The notes under the pieces are model-generated. The model was not told the origin of the DNA and did not search any database. It saw only the letters and a list, made by a program, of their open reading frames with translations. A stretch of DNA of 34,104 nucleotides from a virus: IMG/VR virus record IMGVR_UViG_3300034355_000432, positions 1 through 34,104 of that record; one strand, written 5' to 3'. The position numbers and the translations under genes are program-made. Below, one piece after another: positions 2,737-34,104 of the stretch. Within the stretch, counting starts at the first letter, position 1. Each line of letters opens with the position of its first letter.

Positions 2737-2997
2737 TTAGTTCTGCCGGTCGGTTTCCGGCATCACCGTGGCGGCAGACTTGGGTTGTAACGCATACAGC
2801 AAGCGGGTTTGCTCGCGGATCGCGCCGCTGATCTCCCGCTGAGTCTCGCCCAACTGGCTGACGAACTCTTGATGGGCCGACACCAGCGGTAGCAGCACGT
2901 CCTGGCGAAGCACCCAGCCGAACGCAATCGCCACTAGGGTAGGGAAGCCCCACCGCTCGATGATGGCAAACATTGTGGTCTTCGTTTCGTCTGTCAT
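2737..2997 (-). CDS. Small membrane protein (holin candidate)
   Basis: 86 residues. One hydrophobic segment at about residues 16-38 (WGFPTLVAIAFGWVL) follows a short charged N-terminus; the rest is a helical, coiled-coil-like region (HQEFVSQLGETQREI) with a polar tail. This matches small phage membrane proteins often encoded near lysis genes. The start overlaps the preceding stop by ATGA. A one-segment holin or spanin-like accessory is plausible but unproven. Confidence 0.7.
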   Translation of the reverse strand: MTDETKTTMFAIIERWGFPTLVAIAFGWVLRQDVLLPLVSAHQEFVSQLGETQREISGAIREQTRLLYALQPKSAATVMPETDRQN

Positions 2998-3338
2998 CGC
3001 TTACGCATCTCCGTTTGCCAGCCTAAGAGTTGGATTCGATTACTGGCAGATTCCAGCCACCACCGCAGCACTGCCTTAACGATCTCTTGGATGAGAACAC
3101 CCAGCACCAGCGTCAGAATGATGCCCATTTGGTAGTTCTGCCGCTCGCTCCGCTCGATGCTGCGGGCAATCTCGTCCGTGACTACGGCGTATTGCTCGGG
3201 CCTCGTCTGGCTCATGGCGACGTGCGGCCACTTGCGGACCACGCGGTGTGCCAGCCTCGACACAAGGGCTTTCCCGGCCATGTGCCGCCTGGCCGAGAGC
3301 TTCGACCACACGTAGGCGTCGAGGTCTTCGAGGCTCAT
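2994..3338 (-). CDS. Membrane-anchored hypothetical protein
   Basis: 114 residues starting at 3338, where GGGAGG precedes the ATG. The N-terminal half is basic and helical (LSARRHMAGKALVSRLAHRV). A central SIERSERQNYQMG leads into one hydrophobic helix (about residues 75-93, IILTLVLGVLIQEIVKAVL), followed by RWWLESASN. It has one membrane pass and sits between a secreted zinc-finger protein and the small membrane protein at 2737-2997, overlapping both by ATGA. It probably acts in the envelope with these neighbours. Confidence 0.68.
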   Translation of the reverse strand: MSLEDLDAYVWSKLSARRHMAGKALVSRLAHRVVRKWPHVAMSQTRPEQYAVVTDEIARSIERSERQNYQMGIILTLVLGVLIQEIVKAVLRWWLESASNRIQLLGWQTEMRKR

Positions 3339-3607
3339 AGCGGGCACCTCCCGTTGGCACAGGCGGTCTTGGGTTTCTTCCCGGTTCCTTTGCAGATGGG
3401 GCAAATCGTGGAAACGCGACCATCTCCGAGCCGTCCGAGGCCACTGCAATTTTCACAGGAATCGGATGTCGGCTTGATCGGCGTTGCCGCCTGGTAGACA
3501 AGCATGCGTGCCGTTTCGCAGGCGAGATCCGCAGACAGGGAAGGGTCGGATGGAACCGCAGCTGCGGCCATCATCATCACGCCAACGACTAGGGCAGCGG
3601 TCTTCAT
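3335..3607 (-). CDS. Exported small protein with DnaJ-like CxxC zinc finger
   Basis: 90 residues. The N-terminus (MKTAALVVGVMMMAAAAVPS) is a good signal peptide with likely cleavage after the Ala-rich stretch. The C-terminal half has CENCSGLGRLGDG and CPICKGTGKK, two CxxCxGxG-type motifs as in the DnaJ central zinc finger, and ends ACANGRCPL. It overlaps the cysteine peptidase stop by ATGA (start 3607). An exported zinc-binding mini-protein next to a protease and membrane proteins suggests a role at the cell envelope. No J-domain is present, so it is not a DnaJ. Confidence 0.72.
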   Translation of the reverse strand: MKTAALVVGVMMMAAAAVPSDPSLSADLACETARMLVYQAATPIKPTSDSCENCSGLGRLGDGRVSTICPICKGTGKKPKTACANGRCPL

Positions 3608-4602
3608 ATGATGTCCCCAAGTCCCCAGTTGGGCAGCTTCTGTGCAGGCCAGCCATTCACGCCGCTGAAGGCAATGGCATACCGGCCCTTGATGGCTGAC
3701 CACTTGGCCCAGAAACCGCCTTCTGGGATCTCCAGCGACGTGCCGAGCACCTTCCGGCTGCCGCTGTTCCACCGGCCCCAACTGTTCTGCACCATCACCA
3801 GCGGCTCGCCGTACTTCGCCTTCGTTTCCTCGCGGTCGTCAAACCCAAGGTAGGCAAGTGCGTGGTGCCACGTCGCGGCAGACCGTGGCGAAAACCCATT
3901 GGCATCACGTTCGTTGCTGAATGCTTCCGAACCGCAAGACGAGATGCAGTAGCCGTTGGCAAGCAGGTCACGCACCTCTTCGAGCGTCCTGGCCCGCGTG
4001 GCGGTTCGCACCAGGTGGTCGCTGCCGATCTTGCGAATGTCTTGGCCGGGCGACTTGGCCCCGTAGATGCCAGCGTTTCGCCCGCTGTACTTCGTCAGGT
4101 CCGCAATGCCGGGGTAGTTCTTCCGCAGCCACAGGCCCGAGTCCTTCAGCACCACCTCGGCAGCGTGATCGCACGACCAGCCATCGCCGCCGTGGGCGCG
4201 AAACCAATAGATCGACTCCGTGGACAGCACACCGTCCTTGCGTGCGTCGTCCGACAGTTCGGGCACGGATTCCAGAATGCCCGTCACCTCGTCCGCGTTC
4301 CCGGCCACGATCTCGCAGGCCAGCGTGCCAAGGCAGGCGTTTCGAGTTGAGTGGCTGACACAATCGCCACGCTCTTGAGCCTTTGCAGGCAGGGCACCGG
4401 GGAACGCCTGCTCAATCGCCATCCACGGTGCCGAGAGCTTCCCAGCACCGGAACCGAACAGCCCATATCGTCGGCATGTGGTGCCGCCGTCCGGTGCCTG
4501 GCCCTGCTGGAGCAGGAAGAGCGTCAGCCGCTCAGACGCGGCCGGGTCGGCGTAAACGCCACGCAAGCCCGACAGGTATTCGGCCTGGGGTTCCCACGGC
4601 AT
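3604..4602 (-). CDS. Papain-like (C1-type) cysteine peptidase
   Basis: 332 residues. The papain catalytic order is visible: RGDCVSHSTRNA (Cys81, with Asp80 where papain has Gln-x-x-x), ATWHHALAYLGF (His246 or His247) and VMVQNSWGRWN (Asn273). No signal peptide is seen, so it would act in the cytoplasm, be released on lysis or ride in the virion. GGGAGG precedes the ATG at 4602. It is the largest gene of a coupled block of membrane and exported proteins where a lysis cassette would be expected, and no peptidoglycan hydrolase was recognised in the window. Roles in wall or S-layer degradation, adsorption or anti-defence are all open. The fold call is strong, the role is inference. Confidence 0.85.
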   Translation of the reverse strand: MPWEPQAEYLSGLRGVYADPAASERLTLFLLQQGQAPDGGTTCRRYGLFGSGAGKLSAPWMAIEQAFPGALPAKAQERGDCVSHSTRNACLGTLACEIVAGNADEVTGILESVPELSDDARKDGVLSTESIYWFRAHGGDGWSCDHAAEVVLKDSGLWLRKNYPGIADLTKYSGRNAGIYGAKSPGQDIRKIGSDHLVRTATRARTLEEVRDLLANGYCISSCGSEAFSNERDANGFSPRSAATWHHALAYLGFDDREETKAKYGEPLVMVQNSWGRWNSGSRKVLGTSLEIPEGGFWAKWSAIKGRYAIAFSGVNGWPAQKLPNWGLGDII

Positions 4603-4605
4603 GCG

Positions 4606-5085
4606 TCAGCCCCTCCCAGCGCCGCACCACGCAAGAGCGTTGCACAGTTCGATGTACTGCTGGCGAACCTCGGGCGTCACCGGCTTCACGTCGAGGCCGA
4701 TCGTGTCGGCAAAGGCCCGCTCAACGGCTTCGCCCAGCCCGCTGTACTTGTCCTGCGGGTTCGCCCCGAGTCGCCGCCAGCCGATGCGAACAGCGATGAT
4801 TTGGAACCCACGCAGGGCTCTGGTGTCGGTGAACACCGGCTGAGTGTCGGTCGCATCGCCTCGCACCACAGCGGCAGACTTCGACCACAACTGTGCCCAC
4901 AGGATCCGGTCGATGGGGTTCGCCGTGGACATGATCCGGTGAACGTCGGAAACTTTTGTCTTCATCGCCGCGTCAGGCTCTTCAATGGTGATTTCAGTCG
5001 GTGCGGATTTCTTGCAACTCTCGACGCCGAATAGCGCGAAGCATCCAAGGCAAAACGCTACGAGTAGCCGAGTGGTCTGGTTCAT
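4606..5085 (-). CDS. Putative lipoprotein
   Basis: 159 residues starting at 5085 (ATGA overlap with the previous gene). The N-terminus MNQTTRLLVAFCLGCFALFG then VESCKK is a signal peptide ending in a weak lipobox with Cys24 as a candidate acylated residue. The mature part is mixed alpha/beta with no recognised domain (IDRILWAQLW, ALRGFQIIAVRIGWRR). Placed directly upstream of the cysteine peptidase, it could be a spanin-like outer-membrane component or an exclusion lipoprotein. It is longer than most o-spanins, so this stays open. Confidence 0.65.
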   Translation of the reverse strand: MNQTTRLLVAFCLGCFALFGVESCKKSAPTEITIEEPDAAMKTKVSDVHRIMSTANPIDRILWAQLWSKSAAVVRGDATDTQPVFTDTRALRGFQIIAVRIGWRRLGANPQDKYSGLGEAVERAFADTIGLDVKPVTPEVRQQYIELCNALAWCGAGRG

Positions 5086-5366
5086 TTCTTCGCCTTCGAG
5101 GTGCCGCCAAGCATCACGTCGATCAGCTGCTGGCACAGGGCCACGCCTTCGGTGCAGCCAGAAGCCTTGAGCCTCGCCGCAAGGTCGAGCACCGTGTGCA
5201 TGTCCTTCTCTGTCACTGAGGCTTTTTCAGTTGGGCTTTCCACTGCACGCGCTGACCACGCGGCTTTGGCTTTTTGGACCAGAGCGGCCACGGCCGGAGC
5301 AGCGATGAAAGCAGCCGCGCCAACGGCAGCGATGACACGAACCCATGCTGACACGTCATAGGTCAT
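5082..5366 (-). CDS. Small membrane protein (holin-like candidate)
   Basis: 94 residues. One strongly hydrophobic Ala-rich segment at about residues 8-31 (VRVIAAVGAAAFIAAPAVAALV) is followed by a basic stretch and an amphipathic helix with two Cys (SGCTEGVALCQQLID). It overlaps genes on both sides by ATGA. Size, single membrane pass and position before a lipoprotein and a peptidase make it a holin candidate. Confidence 0.65.
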   Translation of the reverse strand: MTYDVSAWVRVIAAVGAAAFIAAPAVAALVQKAKAAWSARAVESPTEKASVTEKDMHTVLDLAARLKASGCTEGVALCQQLIDVMLGGTSKAKK

Positions 5367-5662
5367 CGAACCTCCTCAACCTTCAGCAATGCCCACCGCA
5401 CAAGGGCTTCCCCCTCTTTGGTCTTCAGCAAGTTGCCGACGTGCTGAACCAGTTCGTCGTCGAGCGGGCTGGATGTCTTGGACGCCAGCCACTCGCAGGC
5501 GTCAGCAATCACCAATGAACGCTTGAACGTGTCGGGCTCGTTCACCAGGCGTTGACCGTAGCCGATCAGGGGAGCCCACTGCTGTAGCAACGCCAACTGG
5601 CGCCAAACCGAAAGTCCCTCGCCGTACTTCGTGGCTTCGTCGGGCGTCATCTCGTATGTCAT
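5363..5662 (-). CDS. Hypothetical helical protein
   Basis: 99 residues, predicted all-helical, acidic, no membrane segment and no recognised domain. Features include MTPDEATKYGEG, a Leu/Gln-rich stretch (WRQLALLQQWAPLIGYG) and DACEWLASKTSSPLDDELV. It is coupled by ATGA to genes on both sides within the possible lysis or envelope block. Confidence 0.68.
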   Translation of the reverse strand: MTYEMTPDEATKYGEGLSVWRQLALLQQWAPLIGYGQRLVNEPDTFKRSLVIADACEWLASKTSSPLDDELVQHVGNLLKTKEGEALVRWALLKVEEVR

Positions 5663-5937
5663 TTGGCATCTCCCGTGTGTTCCCCTGAGTCTGCCCCGCC
5701 TTCGTCACCCTCTTGCAGTTCGTCGCCGTTCACCGTCTCGTTGCAGTAGTCGTAGAAGAAATCGAAACAGTCGCGGGTTTCGTGGCGAACGTCCTTCACT
5801 TCCAGCCGAAAAGGGAACTTGAAGTGGTCGCTGTCCTTTACGGTCCCGTCGCCTTCGCAGAGGTAAATGCTCATGTACTTCTGGCTGAAGTCGATGACGA
5901 TCTTTCCGAGCGTCTGGCTGCCGTACTGGTCGCTCAT
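5659..5937 (-). CDS. Hypothetical acidic protein
   Basis: 92 residues. The N-terminal part looks like a beta-sheet (GKIVIDFSQKYMSIYLCEGDG), then KFPFRLEVKDV and an aromatic, acidic DCFDFFYDYCNE. The tail (DELQEGDEGGADSGEH) is very acidic and probably disordered. Not recognised. The start overlaps the stop of the helix-turn-helix gene (TAATG) and the end overlaps the next gene (ATGA). Confidence 0.68.
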   Translation of the reverse strand: MSDQYGSQTLGKIVIDFSQKYMSIYLCEGDGTVKDSDHFKFPFRLEVKDVRHETRDCFDFFYDYCNETVNGDELQEGDEGGADSGEHTGDAK

Positions 5938-6281
5938 TACTCGCCCTCCCCAAAGTTCCGCAGGTCGGGCGGTAGTTCAACTTCACGCACCTCGTAAGAC
6001 ACGGGCTTCGTTACCTGTCGCTCATGCCGAGTGTGTGCATCCCACCGGGCCTGAATCTCACGGCACGATTGGGCGATCTCGCGCGGCGTGGGGTCACGCT
6101 GACGAATCGGCTTGAACCGCAGGCGGCGATCGTGGCGGGGCGGCAGATCCGCTACCGCCTTTAGGCGAATCAGCTGGTCTTTCGTGATGGTCCAGTGCGT
6201 GCAGATAGCGAACATCGAGGAATGTGATGCCCACTGAACCCGCAGCGTCTGGAAATCAATCGTTGCTGTCTTGCCCGCCAT
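5937..6281 (-). CDS. Small helix-turn-helix-like protein (PTP-EIA family, copy 1)
   Basis: 114 residues starting at 6281, where GGAG precedes the ATG. A degenerate helix-turn-helix (ICTHWTITKDQLIRLKAVADL) is followed by RLRFKPIRQRDPTPREIAQS and a charged tail. The segment DPTPREIA then a helix is shared with the protein at 8475-8720 (DPTPDEIAERAAAIKA), so the two are paralogues. DNA binding is likely and target unknown. It overlaps the glycosyltransferase upstream by 26 nt. Confidence 0.72.
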   Translation of the reverse strand: MAGKTATIDFQTLRVQWASHSSMFAICTHWTITKDQLIRLKAVADLPPRHDRRLRFKPIRQRDPTPREIAQSCREIQARWDAHTRHERQVTKPVSYEVREVELPPDLRNFGEGE

Positions 6282-7260
6282 CACTTGTCTCCGGGCTCCA
6301 CTGCATAAGGGTCCGCTGCGCAGGGTTGAGGTAGATAGACCAGCCTTTGGCAATCATGTTTCGGTGCAGGCCAGCGTGCTCGATGTCGCCGTTGATCGAC
6401 TCGTACTTGCAGGCGAAGAACGGCTCCGCTTTGTAGATCGCAGCCGCGCCAAACGCAGACAAGACCTTGATGGGATGCGCACCAGGCGGCGGAAGCCAAA
6501 ACGTAAACCACGCTTCCATGCGTGCCTTCCACCCATGCCAACGGAATGCCCACTGGTCATAGTGGCACCACACCTGCTTGCCATCTACGAAGTTGCCAGG
6601 GTGCTGAAAGAGGGAAGTGCTTGCCATGCACGCGGCGTCTTTGATCCGCTCAAGCCAGCCGATCCCGTTGATTAAACCGTGCGAGCTCCACCCGCCCCAG
6701 GCGTCGAGGTCCACCACAATCACATAGTCGGCGTCACCGAAATGTTCTTGGGCAAGTTCCCTGCCACGGTTTCGGTACTCGGCGTACGCTTGCACTCGGT
6801 TTGGCTCAAATCCGCGCAGGTGTGGCCTGCCGTTGTCGCTGGAATCGACAACCACCGTCTTCGGGTTGTCGGCCGCAAACGCACTGAGCAGCTCTTTCGT
6901 TGAGTCTGTCGAATCGTTTTCGACAACCACTACGCAGGTTGTCTTGAAGTGTTTGCTGAGATCTGAAAGACGGGTGAGCGTCAGCGGCAAGATGCCTCCG
7001 AGTTGCCGGGCCATCCCGATGAATACAACCTTGGACCGGGCGGCTATCAACGCCCCCTCACAAATCACGTCTGCATATAGGGCTGCAAACTCATGATCCA
7101 CCGGCAGGACTTTATCCGGCGTGATTGATTGATCCAGTTCGATTTCCTTCTGGGTGCGTCCCTTTTCAAATCTTGCCAGAGATGCCGCCGTTTCTTTCGT
7201 CAGGTCGCAGATGTCTTTCCGCACAGAGATGCCTTCAAACTCACTGGCAATATCCACCAT
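6256..7260 (-). CDS. GT-A glycosyltransferase (CMT1/CAP59-like)
   Basis: 334 residues from the ATG at 7260. Motifs: VVFIGMARQLGGILP (about 78-92), VVVENDSTDSTKELL (111-125) and YVIVVDLDAWGG (179-190) with a DxD metal/sugar-nucleotide site, then HYDQWAFRWHGWK and ESINGDIEHAGLH. This order resembles the alpha-1,3-mannosyltransferase CMT1/CAP59 group. Substrate unknown. An upstream ATG at 7314 is possible but has no ribosome site; the ATG at 7260 has AGGAG brought close by a hairpin (7268-7283). It forms a pair with the GT34-like gene upstream, so both may act on one glycan, on the virion or the host surface. Confidence 0.8.
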   Translation of the reverse strand: MVDIASEFEGISVRKDICDLTKETAASLARFEKGRTQKEIELDQSITPDKVLPVDHEFAALYADVICEGALIAARSKVVFIGMARQLGGILPLTLTRLSDLSKHFKTTCVVVVENDSTDSTKELLSAFAADNPKTVVVDSSDNGRPHLRGFEPNRVQAYAEYRNRGRELAQEHFGDADYVIVVDLDAWGGWSSHGLINGIGWLERIKDAACMASTSLFQHPGNFVDGKQVWCHYDQWAFRWHGWKARMEAWFTFWLPPPGAHPIKVLSAFGAAAIYKAEPFFACKYESINGDIEHAGLHRNMIAKGWSIYLNPAQRTLMQWSPETSDGGQDSND

Positions 7261-7288
7261 GTCTAACGCACGGTTTTCCGTGCCTCCT
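7258..7288 (-). promoter_or_regulatory. Structured ribosome binding site with spacer hairpin
   Basis: On the minus strand AGGAG (7288-7284) is followed by GCACGG-AAAA-CCGTGC (7283-7268), a perfect 6-bp stem with a 4-nt loop, then GTTAGAC and the ATG (7260-7258). Linear spacing is 23 nt, far too long, but with the hairpin folded the spacing becomes 7 nt, which is optimal. This decides the start of the glycosyltransferase and suggests a structure-dependent initiation site. Confidence 0.6.
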
Positions 7289-7300
7289 GTTACTAAGACT

Positions 7301-7927
7301 TCACTGCCACACATCAGCAAGAGCGTTCGAGAGCCAGCGGAGCTTCTCCTCTCGCGGGAACACACCGCAGGGGTGGTAGACCAAATCACCAGGCTGCCAA
7401 TGCCCGCCGATTTCGTCGTGTGCGTTGCCGGGGCGATTCCACACGCACGAATTGAACGCACGAAGCGGGGCAACCGTCAGCACGTCGCCAAGTGCGTTAG
7501 CGTTGGTGCCAAGGAACGTCTGCCACTGGCACGGCAGCAATCGCCACTGCTCTTGCGTTTCTGAAAGGTGATTCGCCAGCCACCTCGATTGGGCTGTGTT
7601 CCTCCACACCATCGAGCCGCAGTTGATCCGGTTCCAGCTGACGGTTCCTTCCTCGCACGCCGTGACGTTTGGCCCGAGACACGCCAGAGACTCGATCGGC
7701 ACCGACATGTTCGTCAGGATCGCGTCGGCGTCGAGCGTCCAGATCAGATCGAAGCGGTCGAGGTAGTGGCACAGCAGATTGGTGCGGCTCACGGCTACTT
7801 CGTATGGCTGGTTGTCTGCTACCAGCGAATACCCATGACGTAGGCAATACTCCAACTTGTTCGGCATCGTCAGCGCGGCAACGTCGCGGACGTTCTCCGA
7901 CACGCTGGTGATGATGGCAACTTTCAC
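7301..7927 (-). CDS. GT-A glycosyltransferase (GT34, MNN10/GMA12-like)
   Basis: 208 residues from a GTG at 7927 (GTGA overlap with the resolvase stop). The N-terminus VAIITSVSENV is a nucleotide-sugar-binding strand; FDLIWTLDADAIL (59-71) holds the DxD (Asp66, Asp68); INCGSMVWRN corresponds to the acceptor-side N-x-G-x-F/W-RN of GT34 enzymes; PGDLVYHPCGV near the C-terminus matches the conserved late His. It is shorter than fungal GT34 proteins, with no membrane anchor, as in phage homologues. It probably transfers a hexose to a glycan or protein. Confidence 0.78.
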   Translation of the reverse strand: MKVAIITSVSENVRDVAALTMPNKLEYCLRHGYSLVADNQPYEVAVSRTNLLCHYLDRFDLIWTLDADAILTNMSVPIESLACLGPNVTACEEGTVSWNRINCGSMVWRNTAQSRWLANHLSETQEQWRLLPCQWQTFLGTNANALGDVLTVAPLRAFNSCVWNRPGNAHDEIGGHWQPGDLVYHPCGVFPREEKLRWLSNALADVWQ

Positions 7928-8721: not shown

Positions 8722-9843
8722 TCAGTCCTTCGCCAGCGGCATCACCACGCCCGTGTGGTCATCGCACCTGAACACTACCGCACTCGCAAAGTCGATTGCC
8801 TGCACGCTCACAGTCGGCTCGCCATCGGCAGGCAGTCCCGTCAGCCACTCGCGCACATAGATCGGGTCGAGCTTCACCGCACACTCGATCCCGAACTCAA
8901 CCAGCGGACACGTCACCGACGATTCCCCGGCCTCGGCACTTTGCCCGTGCAGCCAGATGCCCGTGGAAGCGAAGGCGAAATCGACACCCTTCGACGCCTC
9001 ACTGGTGCAGATCGCCGCCGCCCTAGTGGCGCTAAGGAGATCCGACGCCAGCACCGTAGTCGGCTGAACGTCCACCTTGGGGATCACGTCCCGCCACTTC
9101 GGGAACCTGCCCGAGACAAGCCGGGCCGTCACTGTCGCAGCCCCAACCGTCGCCACCAGTTCGTTGGCGGTGGCTTCGAGTTGGATCGACGCATCCCCGG
9201 CAACCGCTGCCAGCCTTGCCAAAATCGCCATCACGCGCGAAGGCACCAGCGTCTGGCTGTCATCCACCGCCAGGTCGTGCTCGCACTCGACGGCTGACAA
9301 CCTTCTCCCGTCCGTGGCAACAAACGTGACAACCTCGCCCACCACGTCCAAGAGCACGGCACCGAGAGCGAACCGGCTGGAGTCGTCATCGGTGGCGAAG
9401 TTCACACCACGAACCGCACGCGAGAACTGATCGCAGGGCAGCCGCGTGATGGGCTTCTCACCCTCAACCTCCCAAGTGGGGTACTCTAGTACACACTCCG
9501 TAGGAAGCGTCCACGTCCCCGCTCCAGCCGATACGGTGCAACTGGTGTCCCCAGCCGCCAACGTCACCAAGTCGCCCGTAGACGCAGCCAGGATCGCAGC
9601 CAGACGGGCATGGGGCAGAAGCAGTGCTTCTCCGGTCCACTCGGGCAGTTCGACTTGAATCTGCACCTCCCCGTCCGATGCCGTCAGGTGGCCGTCGCCC
9701 AGCCTGACGTTCATCAGGATCGGCTTCGGGCTGCGGCTCGGCACCGCCGGGGACACCGCGTGCAGCGCCGCCTTCAGATCAGCGGCGTTCAACGCTGTGC
9801 CAGTGGGCCGGGTCTTTTTTCGTTCCTTCGTTGCTGTTGTCAT
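8722..9843 (-). CDS. dnaN: DNA polymerase III beta subunit (sliding clamp)
   Basis: 373 residues, the full length of a bacterial clamp (366 in E. coli). Conserved elements: SSRFALGAVLLDV (155-167) followed by TFVATDGRRLSAVE (173-186), the central clamp signature; GRFPKWRDVIP (245-255); and the C-terminal VVMPLAKD, matching the VxMP-(M/L) end of beta clamps. As a homodimer it rings DNA and tethers polymerases, ligase and mismatch repair proteins. No phage replicative polymerase is seen in the window, so it would either load onto host Pol III or serve other partners. AAAGGA lies before the ATG at 9843. A complete phage-encoded clamp is unusual. Confidence 0.93.
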   Translation of the reverse strand: MTTATKERKKTRPTGTALNAADLKAALHAVSPAVPSRSPKPILMNVRLGDGHLTASDGEVQIQVELPEWTGEALLLPHARLAAILAASTGDLVTLAAGDTSCTVSAGAGTWTLPTECVLEYPTWEVEGEKPITRLPCDQFSRAVRGVNFATDDDSSRFALGAVLLDVVGEVVTFVATDGRRLSAVECEHDLAVDDSQTLVPSRVMAILARLAAVAGDASIQLEATANELVATVGAATVTARLVSGRFPKWRDVIPKVDVQPTTVLASDLLSATRAAAICTSEASKGVDFAFASTGIWLHGQSAEAGESSVTCPLVEFGIECAVKLDPIYVREWLTGLPADGEPTVSVQAIDFASAVVFRCDDHTGVVMPLAKD

Positions 9844-18205: not shown

Positions 18206-18662
18206 GGGCGAGTTCCTTACGGGCGTTGCTGATCGCACGGCGAACCAGCACCCTACCGGCCGCGTCAAGGAACGGCAGGCTGCGCTTCGTCGCTTCCTCG
18301 CGTAGCCAACCGACGATCTCGTCTAGGTGGGCGGAGCACCAGCCGGGTTCCTTGGCCTCCTCCTCGTCCATCTTGCGGGCACGGGCATTGCAGGAGCAGT
18401 TGGGCGTGGCCGTGATGCCGATGAGCTTGAGTAGTTTCTTGAGTTCAACGCCGGGGCCGTGGGTTGGTGCTGGCGGTTGCGGTGCGGCCTTTGCTTGTGG
18501 CGGCACGAATCCCGGCTTCGGATCGCGCGGGTACGCCGGGTGCGTCTCGTCAACCGTGATCTGGTCGCCGTCTTGGCTGACGATGCAGGGCCGAACCTCG
18601 TCAGGCGTGTAGCCACGTTGGCGGCAGCGGGCGGCGAGGTGATTGATGTGGCACGTAATCAT
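18162..18662 (-). CDS. Conserved-looking phage protein with Cys cluster
   Basis: 166 residues, start overlapping the preceding stop (ATGA). The N-terminus MITCHINHLAARCRQRGYTP, then EVRPCIVSQDGDQITVDETH and PAYP, a Pro-rich linker, LKKLLKLIGITATPNCSCNARARKMD split at about 75-100, then GWCSAHLDEIVGWLREEA. The C-x-C and WC pattern recurs in environmental phages of unknown function and suggests a metal site. Located just after the Cys-rich protein in the late operon, so possibly virion-associated. Confidence 0.72.
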   Translation of the reverse strand: MITCHINHLAARCRQRGYTPDEVRPCIVSQDGDQITVDETHPAYPRDPKPGFVPPQAKAAPQPPAPTHGPGVELKKLLKLIGITATPNCSCNARARKMDEEEAKEPGWCSAHLDEIVGWLREEATKRSLPFLDAAGRVLVRRAISNARKELARAEKAATAEGRDEA

Positions 18663-19249
18663 GGCAGCGGGTTGTTGCAGGGGAGGTATTCCGGATAGTC
18701 ATTCCCCCCAGCATCGACAAATGTTACCGTGCCGTCTGGGTTTTTGCGGTAGCAGAACCAGGCAAACGCGATGCCGTCATTACATTCATCGCAATCTGCG
18801 TCCGTGTCATACTCGCATAATGGCGGAGTCTCCTGTAGCCATACTCCGCCGAGTTCCGTTTCGCAGTAGTCCCGGCCAGCAGCCGATCCAAACTCATCAA
18901 ATTCACCACCAACGAGGCACACCCCCTTTTCGGTGTCGATGACTCCAGTTCCGTCCGGGCATGTTGCCACGCCGCACGCTTCGAAATACCACCTGTCGCA
19001 CAGGAACCCCCCAGACACGCACTCCCCGTCCACGCACTCGCAGCCTTCGCCGCACGGGTTCTCTCCGTCGCACGGGCCGCAGCACGTCTCTGCGACGCAC
19101 TCCCCGTCGCAACACGAGCACCCTTCGGGGCACGGGTTCTCGGCATCGCACGGGCCGGAGCACTTGTTGCAGCAACACGCCGCCCCCGTGCCGAGGGCAC
19201 CGCCCTGAAGAACAAGTTTCCCGTCTTGTACCGTTAGTGGTGCGGTCAT
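18659..19249 (-). CDS. Cysteine-rich repeat protein
   Basis: 196 residues from the ATG at 19249 (ATGA overlap). After a short N-terminus come CCC and two 26-residue repeats (about 30-55 and 56-81) of the form C-x-GPCD-x-ENPC-x-EGC-x-C-x-DGEC. Further Cys (FLCDRWYFEACGVATC, CDECND) follow. With more than 25 Cys it must form disulfides or bind metals; tandem motifs like this occur in secreted EGF-like or metallothionein-like modules. No signal peptide. It follows the distal tail genes, so a virion-surface tip protein is plausible. Not seen in standard siphophages. Confidence 0.75.
   Translation of the reverse strand: MTAPLTVQDGKLVLQGGALGTGAACCCNKCSGPCDAENPCPEGCSCCDGECVAETCCGPCDGENPCGEGCECVDGECVSGGFLCDRWYFEACGVATCPDGTGVIDTEKGVCLVGGEFDEFGSAAGRDYCETELGGVWLQETPPLCEYDTDADCDECNDGIAFAWFCYRKNPDGTVTFVDAGGNDYPEYLPCNNPLP
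19007..19162 (-). repeat. Two 78-bp tandem repeats coding for Cys modules
   Basis: The stretches 19162-19085 and 19084-19007 each code for a 26-residue Cys module and are clearly similar at DNA level, for example the GCACGGGTTCTC words on plus. This points to a recent duplication within the gene. Confidence 0.7.
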
Positions 19250-19887
19250 GGGGCAGGGCACTCTTCAAGTGCAATGATTGTTTCTACGGCTTCAACCTCG
19301 GTATGTAGCACCACAAACATCTTCTGCTTAACCACAACAAGTTCGCCATCCTCAATCCTCACATCCAAGACAACGTCTTTTTGTGTAAACCCCACCCACT
19401 TCGGGCACCCTTCGTCGTTTAGCAAGAGTTGCGGATTGTCGGCGGCGTCAACAATCTCATCGAGCGCAAAGTCGCACACTGCGCCGTCGCCTAAGTCGCG
19501 CGCAGACGGCTTGCCGTTGCATCCAAGTTTATGGTTCACGTAGTACCAAGCAGTCCCCTCCTTGGCGATCATGACTTCTGTAGTGCTTCCATCGCATTGC
19601 ACTGGGATTTCAGCGAGTAGGTTCATGGCGCTGGCAGTGTTCGGCGTGGTCGTCACGTTCTTGAACGTGACGGTCCTTTCCGAGCCAATCGACCACGCCC
19701 CGGTGAAGGTGCAGACGCGAAAGGTCTTGCCAGGGGCAGCACCAGGTGCCGAGCCAAAGTAAATGCCCGGCGTGTCTCGGTCGCCACCTTCAACGGCACG
19801 CACTACCTTGGCAATCCGTTCCGCAGCGGGCCGCGTAAACGTCACCCGCTCAGTGCGTGCTGCTTTGCCGTCTGGTTTTTGTGCCAC
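19246..19887 (-). CDS. Hypothetical tail-region structural protein
   Basis: 213 residues from a GTG at 19887 with GAGG 7 nt upstream (a TTG at 19893 is an alternative). TRPAAERIAKVVRAVEGG near the start is a helix I recall from structural proteins of aquatic phages; then RVCTFTGAWSIGSERTVTF (beta), EVMIAKEGTAWYYVNHKLG and DGELVVVKQKMFVVLHT. It seems to be a mostly beta virion protein. It lies between two tail-tip type genes. Confidence 0.7.
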   Translation of the reverse strand: MAQKPDGKAARTERVTFTRPAAERIAKVVRAVEGGDRDTPGIYFGSAPGAAPGKTFRVCTFTGAWSIGSERTVTFKNVTTTPNTASAMNLLAEIPVQCDGSTTEVMIAKEGTAWYYVNHKLGCNGKPSARDLGDGAVCDFALDEIVDAADNPQLLLNDEGCPKWVGFTQKDVVLDVRIEDGELVVVKQKMFVVLHTEVEAVETIIALEECPAP

Positions 19888-29235: not shown

Positions 29236-29412
29236 CTATTGCCGGTCGGTGCGTGTCTTGCAGTACCGCACTTCGGAATGTGTTGTGTGGACAAAACAAG
29301 TTCCGCGTGCCCCGCACTTCGGGCACCGCATGTACCGCTGCCGCTCGTTGCCAACCGGGCGGCTGGAACGAGTTCGCAGGCGCTCACCGCACTGGCACCT
29401 CACTTCAGACAT
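29236..29412 (-). CDS. Com/Ogr-like small zinc-ribbon protein
   Basis: 58 residues, ATG at 29412 with GAGG 8 nt upstream, stop at 29236. VRCQCGERLRTR then YMRCPKCGARGTCFVHTTHS form a zinc ribbon (CxC, CxxC plus further Cys/His), close in layout to Mu Com and P2 Ogr/Delta-type zinc proteins, which bind RNA or activate late transcription. It overlaps the prohead protease stop by 8 nt and is followed by the capsid gene. As an RNA-binding factor in front of the capsid it could control capsid translation, but only the ribbon is shown by the sequence. Confidence 0.68.
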   Translation of the reverse strand: MSEVRCQCGERLRTRSSRPVGNERQRYMRCPKCGARGTCFVHTTHSEVRYCKTRTDRQ

Positions 29413-30049
29413 TTCGCAGCCTCAGAGTCCATGCCGCAGCGGCATCACGCACCAGCGAACGTTTCGCAATCTCCGCAACCACCTCGGGGGCGGCAGGCGT
29501 TTCCTGCGTTGCCAACCATGCTTCGTAGGAACGCAGGGCAACAGATGCGGACGTGGAAGGGTAGGCCGGGTTCAGCACCGGCCCCACGTCGTAGAGTCCC
29601 GATACCTCGCGGATTTGGCGGATGGCCTTGCCGTCCTCGCCAGTGCGGAAGGATTCATTCTTCGGGTCCACCGTGAAGGCGAACGAACTGCCCCGCACGT
29701 CGCGCCGCTGAATCAGTTCGAGCACGTCGGCCCGGCTGACGGGTGGCGTCACCACGTACTTCAGCCCCTTGTCATCGCTGGAGAGTTCAAGCGTGCCAGA
29801 AGATGAACGGCCCAGCACGATATTGGAATCGTGGTTGAACAGTGCCACCACGTCGCCCTTGCCCCTCTGGCGGCTCAGTATCTTGTCGAAGGCTCCCGGC
29901 AGGATCTCTTCCCTGAAGCCACCCAGATCGAGCGACAGGCGGTTGTAGACGGCAGCGTAGCCGATGATGGCAGCCCGGCCATCGGCGCGGCTTTCAATCA
30001 TCAGTTCGTTATCGTCCTCAAAGGCGAAATCGCGGCGTTCAATTTCCAT
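29405..30049 (-). CDS. Prohead protease (HK97 U35 family)
   Basis: 214 residues from the ATG at 30049 (AGGAGG upstream). IIGYAAVYNRLSLDLGGFRE and EILPGAFDKILSRQ are typical of the family; VVALFNHDSNIVLGRSSSGT contains the catalytic His73, and RDVRGSSFAFTVD the catalytic Ser (121/122). A serine protease that matures the prohead by removing the capsid delta domain and itself. It overlaps the portal gene by 11 nt. Confidence 0.92.
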   Translation of the reverse strand: MEIERRDFAFEDDNELMIESRADGRAAIIGYAAVYNRLSLDLGGFREEILPGAFDKILSRQRGKGDVVALFNHDSNIVLGRSSSGTLELSSDDKGLKYVVTPPVSRADVLELIQRRDVRGSSFAFTVDPKNESFRTGEDGKAIRQIREVSGLYDVGPVLNPAYPSTSASVALRSYEAWLATQETPAAPEVVAEIAKRSLVRDAAAAWTLRLRNV

Positions 30050-31304
30050 CTGGGGTGTCCTCCTGTTCGGCCTGGTCTTGTTCCTCTGCGGGCGGCGCGG
30101 GCATCGGCTCAGTTGCCGGTGCTTGCTGCCCAACCTTGTCCAGCGTGGTCATGTTGAGTTGCACGAAGTGCTTGTCGCCTTCTGGCCCGATCGGGTTGAG
30201 GTTTTCAAGTTCGCGGATCTCGTTCACTGTCATCCAGCCGTTTTGCAACGCTGACACGTAGTAGGCCGATCGGCTGGCGTGGTCGCCACGAAGCAACCCG
30301 CTAACGCTGTGCTCGGCAAAATACGTTTCGTCGTCCACGATCAGGTCGCGAGAGATAGCCGCTTCCCACCGCTTCAGGTGCGGCAGCAGGCAGTGCTGCA
30401 CGAACTCCGTGCCCTGCACCTCGATGTTCGAGTACGTCGATCGGGTGAGATCCTGAATCATGTGGGGCGGCACGCGGAACGCCCGGCATATTTCGATGAC
30501 TTGATACTGCCGCGTCTCAAGGAACTGGGCCGCCTCATTGCTGCCGCTGAGTTCGTGGGCCTTCACGCCGTTGGGCAGGACAGCCGTTCGGAAGGCACGA
30601 TCAGCGCCCCGGTGCATCCGCTCCCACTGCTCACGCAGACGTTCGGCCGCTTCCACAGGAATCGGGTTCTCCGACTCGAGCACGATGCCGGGCCGGGCAC
30701 CGTTCCCGAAGTACGTGCTGCCGTGGGCCTCGAGAGCCTGCGAAAGCCCGATGGCATTCTGGAAGATCTTGTACGTGGGGATCGCCTTGATGCCGTCCTC
30801 TGTGGTGAACCGCAGGGCGAATATCTGGCTCTGGCTGTAGATCGTCTGCTTGCCGCTCGGCTCCCGGTATCGGTAGCGGAGGGTGCCATCCTCAAGCCGC
30901 TCGGCTTCCATACGGCTGGGGTGAAGCGGCCACAACTCCGAGATGGCACCGCGAGCACCTGGGCGAATCTCGGCGTAGGAAGCCCCGTAGTGCAGGTACA
31001 TCCCCGTCATCCAATCGCGGAACTCCTGCGCCGTCTGCCACGGATTTGGCTGCGTGTGCAGCAGTCGGTACACAGGGTGCGTGGACGCCTTCGCCTTGCC
31101 ACCGTTGGCAAGTCGTTCATAGACGTGCAGCGGCAGGGAAGATACGGCATCGGAGATCACCCGAATGCACGCCGTGTACGCAGAGCAGGCCATCGAGTTG
31201 TCAGCCGTCACGCGGATGCCGCTGGGTGTGCGGTTGCTGCCGCCATCGGTCCAGTCGATCCCGCGAAGCTCAAACATCTTGTAGTCTGGCACTGCTTCGT
31301 TCAT
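30039..31304 (-). CDS. Portal protein (HK97 family)
   Basis: 421 residues from the ATG at 31304 overlapping the terminase stop (ATGA). VTADNSMACSAYTACIRVIS then DAVSSLPLHVYERL and HPVYRLLHTQPNPWQTAQEF, plus FRDWMTGMYLHYGASYAEI, are the family hallmarks. EICRAFRVPPHMIQDLTRST then YSNIEVQGTEFVQHCLLPHL is the clip/wing region, and NGWMTVNEIRELENLNPIGP the C-terminal end. It forms the DNA-entry ring of the head. The Glu/Gln/Pro-rich tail may be disordered. Confidence 0.95.
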   Translation of the reverse strand: MNEAVPDYKMFELRGIDWTDGGSNRTPSGIRVTADNSMACSAYTACIRVISDAVSSLPLHVYERLANGGKAKASTHPVYRLLHTQPNPWQTAQEFRDWMTGMYLHYGASYAEIRPGARGAISELWPLHPSRMEAERLEDGTLRYRYREPSGKQTIYSQSQIFALRFTTEDGIKAIPTYKIFQNAIGLSQALEAHGSTYFGNGARPGIVLESENPIPVEAAERLREQWERMHRGADRAFRTAVLPNGVKAHELSGSNEAAQFLETRQYQVIEICRAFRVPPHMIQDLTRSTYSNIEVQGTEFVQHCLLPHLKRWEAAISRDLIVDDETYFAEHSVSGLLRGDHASRSAYYVSALQNGWMTVNEIRELENLNPIGPEGDKHFVQLNMTTLDKVGQQAPATEPMPAPPAEEQDQAEQEDTPDGN

Positions 31305-32863: not shown

Positions 32864-33272
32864 CGGCAGAAACCCTTGAAAGTGCAGATGCAGTCAGGCC
32901 GAACTGCTCCGCAAACCGGAGCATGTGCAACCGCGAATCCTTTTTGCGATACCACGCCGGGTGATTCATCACGCGGCCCTTATCGTCCATGAACGTGGCC
33001 CCGTGCTGCTTTAACTCGGCATCGGCTTTTACCATGTCCGCAAAGGCATCGCAGTAACAGGCAAGCGTCTGCTGGTGTCGCATGCTCATCACCTTGGACG
33101 CTTCAAGCATCGGCACGATACGTGCCCACTCGGTCTGCCCGATCTCGCACAGATATGACGGCGGGTCTGGAATCCCCGGCGGTGCGTCGATGCCTGTCTT
33201 GTGCGGCCCGCGAATGCGTGAACCTCGCAGGCTCAAGATCGCCTTGGCTACCGGCTTCCTGCCTTTGCCCAT
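32814..33272 (-). CDS. terS: Terminase small subunit (P27 family)
   Basis: 152 residues, TAATG overlap with the ligase stop. GKGRKPVAKAILSLRGSRIR at the N-terminus, then EWARIVPMLEASKVMSMRHQ and QTLACYCDAFADMVKADAEL, and HMLRFAEQFGLTASALSRVS match the P27 family (GRKP, LT--D---L--YC--, FGLTPS-R-RV). It recognises the packaging site and guides TerL. Confidence 0.9.
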   Translation of the reverse strand: MGKGRKPVAKAILSLRGSRIRGPHKTGIDAPPGIPDPPSYLCEIGQTEWARIVPMLEASKVMSMRHQQTLACYCDAFADMVKADAELKQHGATFMDDKGRVMNHPAWYRKKDSRLHMLRFAEQFGLTASALSRVSAVDQGPQADEDDARMFA

Positions 33273-34018
33273 TACGCCACCCTGAGAAATGACGGGAACC
33301 GTGGCACGCCGCCATCAGTCAACGACTGAAACTTAAACGTAACAAGCGTGCCAACCTTTGGCGGGCATCGCCTGGCTGCATCCGTCAGCCCTGACGATAG
33401 GCGGAACTCCGTGCCGTCTGCCAGACGCATCACCAGCACACCAACTGCGGAAGCGTTCCTGCCGGTGCCGCCTTCGTAGCCGATCACCGTGGCCTCGGCA
33501 TCCTGAAACGTCTTGACCTTGAGCAGCGTTGCGGATCGCTTTCGCTCGTAGGTACTGCCCGGCTGGCGAAGCATGAGCCCCTCACCTCCGAGGTGCTCGA
33601 CGCGGGCCAACTCCTCCAGCAGATCGCCGCTGCCGCTGCACTGCCGCTGTGGCAACGCAAAGGCCACGCTGCCGCTGATCGCCGCACGCATCGCCGCTTG
33701 CCGTTCCTCAAAACCGCCGGAAGCCAGCGGGGCATCAAACGCTGCGAACCGGATTGAACGCCACGCATCGCCGCCGTCATGCGACCGGACCAGGCCAACC
33801 GTCTGCTGGAACTGGCCGCGACCGATCCAGAGTTCACCATCGAGCGGCTCGCACTTTGGCAAAGCATCCACGAACCACTGCGGGGCGTGGATCGGCTGCC
33901 CGGTGCGAGTGGTCAATGTGCGGCAATCCCACACGGCCCGCACGCCGTCGAGCTTCTCCGAGATCCACCAGCCGGTCGGATCGGAACCGCTCCAGTTCTT
34001 TGCAAGCAGTACGGCCAT
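33272..34018 (-). CDS. ATP-dependent DNA ligase
   Basis: 248 residues from the ATG at 34018 (GGAGGTGGAG directly before it). Motif I SEKLDGVRAVWD places the adenylated Lys at about 22; then EPLDGELWIGRGQF (III), GGEGLMLRQPGSTYERKRS (IV) and TLLKVKTFQDAEATVIGYEG (V), followed by an OB-fold (VGTLVTFKFQSLTDGG). It is a minimal ligase with no extra N-terminal domain, similar in size to LigE and small phage ligases. It joins nicks during replication or in the packaged DNA. A ligase beside terminase is unusual; it may restore DNA at cohesive ends. Confidence 0.93.
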   Translation of the reverse strand: MAVLLAKNWSGSDPTGWWISEKLDGVRAVWDCRTLTTRTGQPIHAPQWFVDALPKCEPLDGELWIGRGQFQQTVGLVRSHDGGDAWRSIRFAAFDAPLASGGFEERQAAMRAAISGSVAFALPQRQCSGSGDLLEELARVEHLGGEGLMLRQPGSTYERKRSATLLKVKTFQDAEATVIGYEGGTGRNASAVGVLVMRLADGTEFRLSSGLTDAARRCPPKVGTLVTFKFQSLTDGGVPRFPSFLRVA

Positions 34019-34104
34019 CACTCCACCTCCAGCCAGAGTTGTGCCAGCGTGATCGGGGCAGGCTCGCATTCCTGCGGAGAGATCAGCCAACGGTAGAAGC
34101 CGCC
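34018..34104 (-). CDS. Partial gene running off the window
   Basis: The last 28 codons of an open frame enter from the right edge and end with a TGA at 34020-34018 that overlaps the ligase ATG (TGATG). The visible part is GGFYRWLISPQECEPAPITL then AQLWLEVE. Coupling supports a real gene. Function unknown. Reading through to base 1 gives a stop within six codons and no start, so the two window ends do not join directly. Confidence 0.6.
   Translation of the reverse strand, partial: GGFYRWLISPQECEPAPITLAQLWLEVE

Follow-up and report, generated by a model that had tools for sequence, protein, structure and literature searches.

Holin-endolysin cassettes of dsDNA phages, including those with SAR endolysins that are exported by an N-terminal signal anchor, rely on enzymes such as lysozymes, amidases and transglycosylases. 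Peptidases also take part in some lysis systems: mycobacteriophage Lysin A proteins carry the N-terminal cysteine-peptidase domains N4 and N5 (RipA-like, C39-like; PMC3314691), and methanogen viruses use pseudomurein endoisopeptidases (Pei, named in PMC12596118), which cut the peptide part of the wall. A recent census of viral lytic proteins does not mention papain or Planctomycetes in its main text (PMC12596118), and how phages break Planctomycetota cells appears undescribed in the papers we could search. Here we analyzed the whole 34,104-nt IMG/VR record IMGVR_UViG_3300034355_000432 (the window), a freshwater phage very probably infecting Planctomycetota, which carries a conserved set of small membrane and exported proteins around a predicted papain-family (C1) cysteine peptidase. 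The original prediction described this block as eight coupled genes encoding single-pass membrane proteins or candidates, a lipoprotein, a secreted CxxC zinc protein and a C1-type peptidase, without a recognizable muramidase, amidase or transglycosylase in the window, and suggested an unusual lysis system aimed at a protein-rich cell envelope.

The window is a siphovirus genome with small and large terminase, HK97-type portal, S78 prohead protease, capsid, tail and integrase genes. In the sister phages HNH, ligase, TerS and TerL follow in order across the join of the window's two ends, so the contig is probably an almost complete, circularly permuted genome. Other features include a sliding clamp (DNA pol III beta, 8722-9843) and an ATP-dependent DNA ligase (33272-34102), both in a temperate phage of ~35 kb, and a Cys-rich protein with two ~26-residue repeats (CDGENPC.EGC.C) in the tail region (18659-19261).

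The block itself is confirmed: eight ORFs lie on the minus strand at 2737-5937, separated by short overlaps or a 3-nt gap, although two starts needed correction (the second membrane protein starts at 3338 with MSLEDLDAY, not at 3449, and the gene ending at 4606 starts at 5085). In about 20 sister phages (99 to 59% identity in the peptidase) the order glycosyltransferase, 5937, 5659, 5363, 5082, 4606, peptidase, Cys-rich protein, 2994, 2737, virion protein, HNH, terminase is largely kept, and six of the eight genes form a conserved module. Two glycosyltransferase-like genes lie directly upstream of the block (6256-7927), of which the 6256 gene is conserved in the sister phages, and in one sister (L003) a gene that looks by eye like a QueE-like radical SAM gene of the 7-deazaguanine pathway lies downstream of the block (L003:7500-8081), a hint of DNA modification.

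The peptidase (3604-4602, 332 aa) has no signal peptide in the window. Residues Q76 (codon 4375-4377), C81 (4360-4362) and H247 (3862-3864) are invariant in 59 diverse homologues and N273 (3784-3786) is conserved in at least 90% of them, giving the catalytic Cys, His and Asn with the oxyanion-hole Gln in the order of family C1. One homologue (L251:1130-3193) holds a ~362-aa intein inserted exactly at the active-site Cys (QGQVGS/CFPAGT...GVHN/CVAFG), which is independent support that this Cys is the key residue. Single-sequence Pfam and PDB searches found nothing, and with Pfam PF00112 the window protein gave no hit while 3 of 59 homologues did (best 1.1e-6). A profile built from the 59 homologues hit PDB chains of the papain family (all 60 chains listed, best E 0.0013). 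An AlphaFold model with 16 close homologues reached a pLDDT of only 48, whereas the 59 diverse homologues gave a confident model (pLDDT 90.2, pTM 0.91), for which the 50 Foldseek PDB matches listed are all papain-type peptidases, the best being xylellain (E 3.6e-9), Lpg2622 and cathepsins. Viral matches in BFVD include papain-fold phage proteins named peptidoglycan-binding-like, N-acetylmuramidase and, weakly, two Lysin A proteins. No recognizable wall-binding domain was found in the peptidase.

Upstream of the peptidase lies its exported partner (4606-5085, the A8 family), consisting of a hydrophobic N-terminal export signal (signal anchor) plus a domain of ~120 aa. This partner is adjacent to the peptidase in sister phages and close upstream in jumbo phages. 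The lipobox Cys of this family is not conserved, so the label of lipoprotein is not supported, an o-spanin criterion fails, and a spanin reading was rejected. The next gene (5082-5366) encodes a single-pass membrane protein with a strong N-terminal TM (KD 2.33 at residue 12) and a C-terminal domain with two Cys; it is alignable with jumbo-phage proteins in the same slot and is a holin candidate. On the other side of the peptidase, 3335-3607 encodes a 90-aa Cys-rich protein (CxxCxGxG) with an N-terminal signal peptide, and similar proteins lie next to the peptidase in sister, jumbo and wider phages; its hits to DnaJ and anti-TRAP are probably due to Cys spacing only. It is followed by a 114-aa membrane protein with a strong C-terminal TM (2994-3338, KD 2.29 at residue 73), conserved in sister phages, and an 86-aa protein with a borderline N-terminal TM and a predicted coiled coil (2737-2997), which has a holin-like layout but no credible Pfam hit. 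In L003 a different TM plus coiled-coil protein (L003:5590-6189) occupies the same slot as 2737-2997 in a near-identical phage, suggesting modular swapping. The two remaining genes look soluble: 5363-5662 is conserved in sister phages, has a weak hit to phrog_402 and is probably not part of the envelope module, while 5659-5937 is acidic, has no convincing family hit and is not obviously part of the module.

To determine whether a standard endolysin exists just outside the window, a finding that would have refuted the original prediction, the stretch between HNH and ligase, mostly missing from the window, was inspected in the sisters L003, L004 and L005; it holds a primase-polymerase-like ORF, judged by eye, and not a lysin. 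Searches with Phage_lysozyme, Amidase_2, SLT, CHAP (PF05257) and NlpC/P60 (PF00877) gave no match in 17 records (the window, sisters, nine jumbo phages of 197-205 kb and others), while the control genomes were detected. M23 gave only hits below cut-off in jumbo cl16/RNAP-region proteins, which were discounted, and M15_4 gave none in 25 records. One of the records, the 35-kb sister L018, has an exact 127-bp terminal repeat and is taken as a complete circular genome. A Pfam scan of 60 window ORFs also found no muramidase, amidase or transglycosylase among the 25 families shown of 32 matched. It remains possible that lysis is done by an unrecognized peptidoglycan hydrolase elsewhere in the genome and that this block is only accessory (spanin-like or outer-envelope disruption), because many window ORFs have no family hit and profile searches can miss divergent lysins; absence of known families is not absence of a hydrolase. 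However, with seven lysin families lacking any hit over cut-off in the records searched and no conserved spanin-type lipobox, we consider this unlikely.

Relatives of the peptidase are widespread. At 52-60% identity it occurs in jumbo phages of ~200 kb, where the core of exported partner, peptidase and exported Cys-rich protein recurs and the usual order is a PG_binding_1-type prodomain plus matrixin, a TM protein, the A8 partner, a TM protein with an exported domain, the peptidase and the Cys-rich protein. The first of these is a matrix-metalloproteinase (MMP)-like zymogen with an RCGLPD cysteine switch and HExxHxxGxxH, found in 10 of 10 jumbo phages tested (L066:7902-8729 and nine other records). 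A two-TM protein (cl17) weakly like Phage_holin_10 also lies beside the jumbo module, the only Pfam holin hit obtained (3 of 18 members, weak). A first GTDB scan with the close family found no relatives, but a profile search found homologues in 12 of 392 Planctomycetota genomes and 0 of 398 Pseudomonadota genomes (one-sided chance about 2e-4). These loci look by eye like prophages (terminase, HNH, portal and tail genes) and mostly keep the A8 partner, a TM protein and an exported Cys-rich or thioredoxin protein. The order TM protein, A8 partner, peptidase, Cys-rich protein is thereby conserved from 35-kb siphoviruses to jumbo phages of ~200 kb and Planctomycetota prophage-like loci. Exported thioredoxin-like proteins lie near the peptidase in some of them (L154:8215-8775, L163:8622-9323), and in L163 the Cys-rich segment and a thioredoxin-like CxxC segment are in one protein. 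A GTDB scan with the portal gave weak hits in mixed hosts, although one hit lies in a Planctomycetota MAG that also holds a papain-like locus (L158) with homologues of window genes 5937, 1983 and HNH. Using the Planctomycetota sequences as query, at least 588 IMG/VR contigs were found to encode relatives, while none was found in 50,697 named phage records.

Among 86 wider viral loci scored, 69 peptidases have an N-terminal TM and 63 have the A8 partner directly upstream, both of which suggest action in the periplasm; the window form lacks the TM, and no jumbo protein inspected shows one. Anchored and soluble forms of one enzyme, beside exported partners and small TM proteins, is the pattern of SAR and holin-dependent lysins. 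The same anchoring and exported partners would also fit an envelope-located host-modification or superinfection system, in which the protease degrades surface or periplasmic proteins (receptors, defence factors, incoming phage proteins) without lysis. The temperate lifestyle with an integrase fits this alternative, and the very high conservation of the enzyme between unrelated phages (>50% identity) suits a conserved protein target, but the genes lie in the same direction as the virion genes and no other lysis enzyme is recognized in complete genomes, so we regard it as unlikely, though it is the strongest of the rivals. A virion-associated protease used in entry or particle maturation is also unlikely. 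The block is adjacent to virion genes (window gene 1983-2684 matches a virion structural PHROG), and in some wider relatives the cassette sits between the prohead protease and the major capsid gene rather than in a classic lysis position. However, the window has its own S78 prohead protease (29405-30133, Pfam 1.9e-38), for which reason a prohead-protease reading was rejected, relatives such as L213 and L186 appear by eye to have one just upstream of the cassette, and a membrane anchor on most homologues is unsuitable for a capsid protein.

In this way, the block is best read as a non-canonical lysis (envelope-degradation) cassette of a temperate siphovirus of Planctomycetota, with a probability of about 0.55. 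Late in infection the small membrane proteins (5082-5366, and perhaps 2994-3338 and 2737-2997) would permeabilize the inner membrane, the cytoplasmic peptidase would then reach the periplasm (in most relatives it would instead be exported by its N-terminal anchor), and there it would work with the A8 partner and the Cys-rich/redox protein, which may keep the active-site Cys reduced or help it fold. It would then cut an envelope substrate, either peptide cross-links of the thin peptidoglycan or structural envelope proteins, and the cell would burst. Our analysis establishes the gene order, the conserved catalytic residues, the anchor as a sequence feature and the lack of recognized lysins in the records searched, and an envelope target is well supported; proteolytic activity, membrane permeabilization, the mode of action of the anchor, the redox role and lysis as the outcome are all inferred from sequence and predicted structure. 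In the sisters the cassette lies between early genes and HNH/TerS/TerL, a common place for lysis cassettes, but the membrane proteins are not recognized holins. Planctomycetota were once thought to have a protein wall but have lysozyme-sensitive, DAP-containing peptidoglycan (PMC4432640), so a lysozyme would work there and the substrate could equally be peptidoglycan peptides, although the MMP-like neighbour in jumbo phages favours protein. One cultured planctomycete phage is reported to be released without lysis (PMC10945688), so lysis cannot be assumed for all. Thus the observation behind the original prediction holds, whereas its interpretation is only partly supported: a lysis or envelope block around a papain-like enzyme survived every computational test we could run, but neither the lipoprotein nor the inference of a protein-rich envelope as target is supported.

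A broader possibility, which we put forward tentatively, is that phages of Planctomycetota, from small siphoviruses to 200-kb jumbo phages, lyse their hosts with a dedicated protease machine (a membrane-anchored or holin-released papain-like enzyme, an exported partner, a redox/Cys-rich helper and, in jumbo phages, an MMP-like zymogen) in place of any peptidoglycan glycosidase or amidase, a strategy not described in the papers we could search. The module is abundant and almost unannotated by Pfam. If it is the lysis system, it shows lysis by a papain-family protease and gives a route to ask what holds these cells together; it also gives a host marker for uncultured viruses.

Compared with described systems, the MMP-like zymogen of the jumbo relatives resembles matrix metalloproteinases (M10A) in its prodomain, cysteine switch and matrixin domain, but is not present in the window or the small phages. 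Pei share the proposed lysis by peptidases that cut wall peptides, but act on pseudomurein of archaeal hosts. They belong to a different peptidase family. In Lysin A the cysteine peptidase, of a different subfamily, is one domain of a multi-domain lysin, usually with a second catalytic domain and a wall-binding domain. With C1A peptidases (papain, xylellain, Lpg2622, cathepsins) the phage-borne enzyme shares the predicted fold, the Gln-Cys-His-Asn active site, the NSW(G) motif and the GG..A segment at about 10-16% identity. Compared with SAR endolysins and holin-endolysin cassettes, the enzyme is papain-like instead of a lysozyme, amidase or transglycosylase, the window protein has no anchor and no spanin is conserved, while an N-terminal signal anchor in most relatives, neighbouring small TM proteins and a late-gene location, sometimes just before terminase, are shared.
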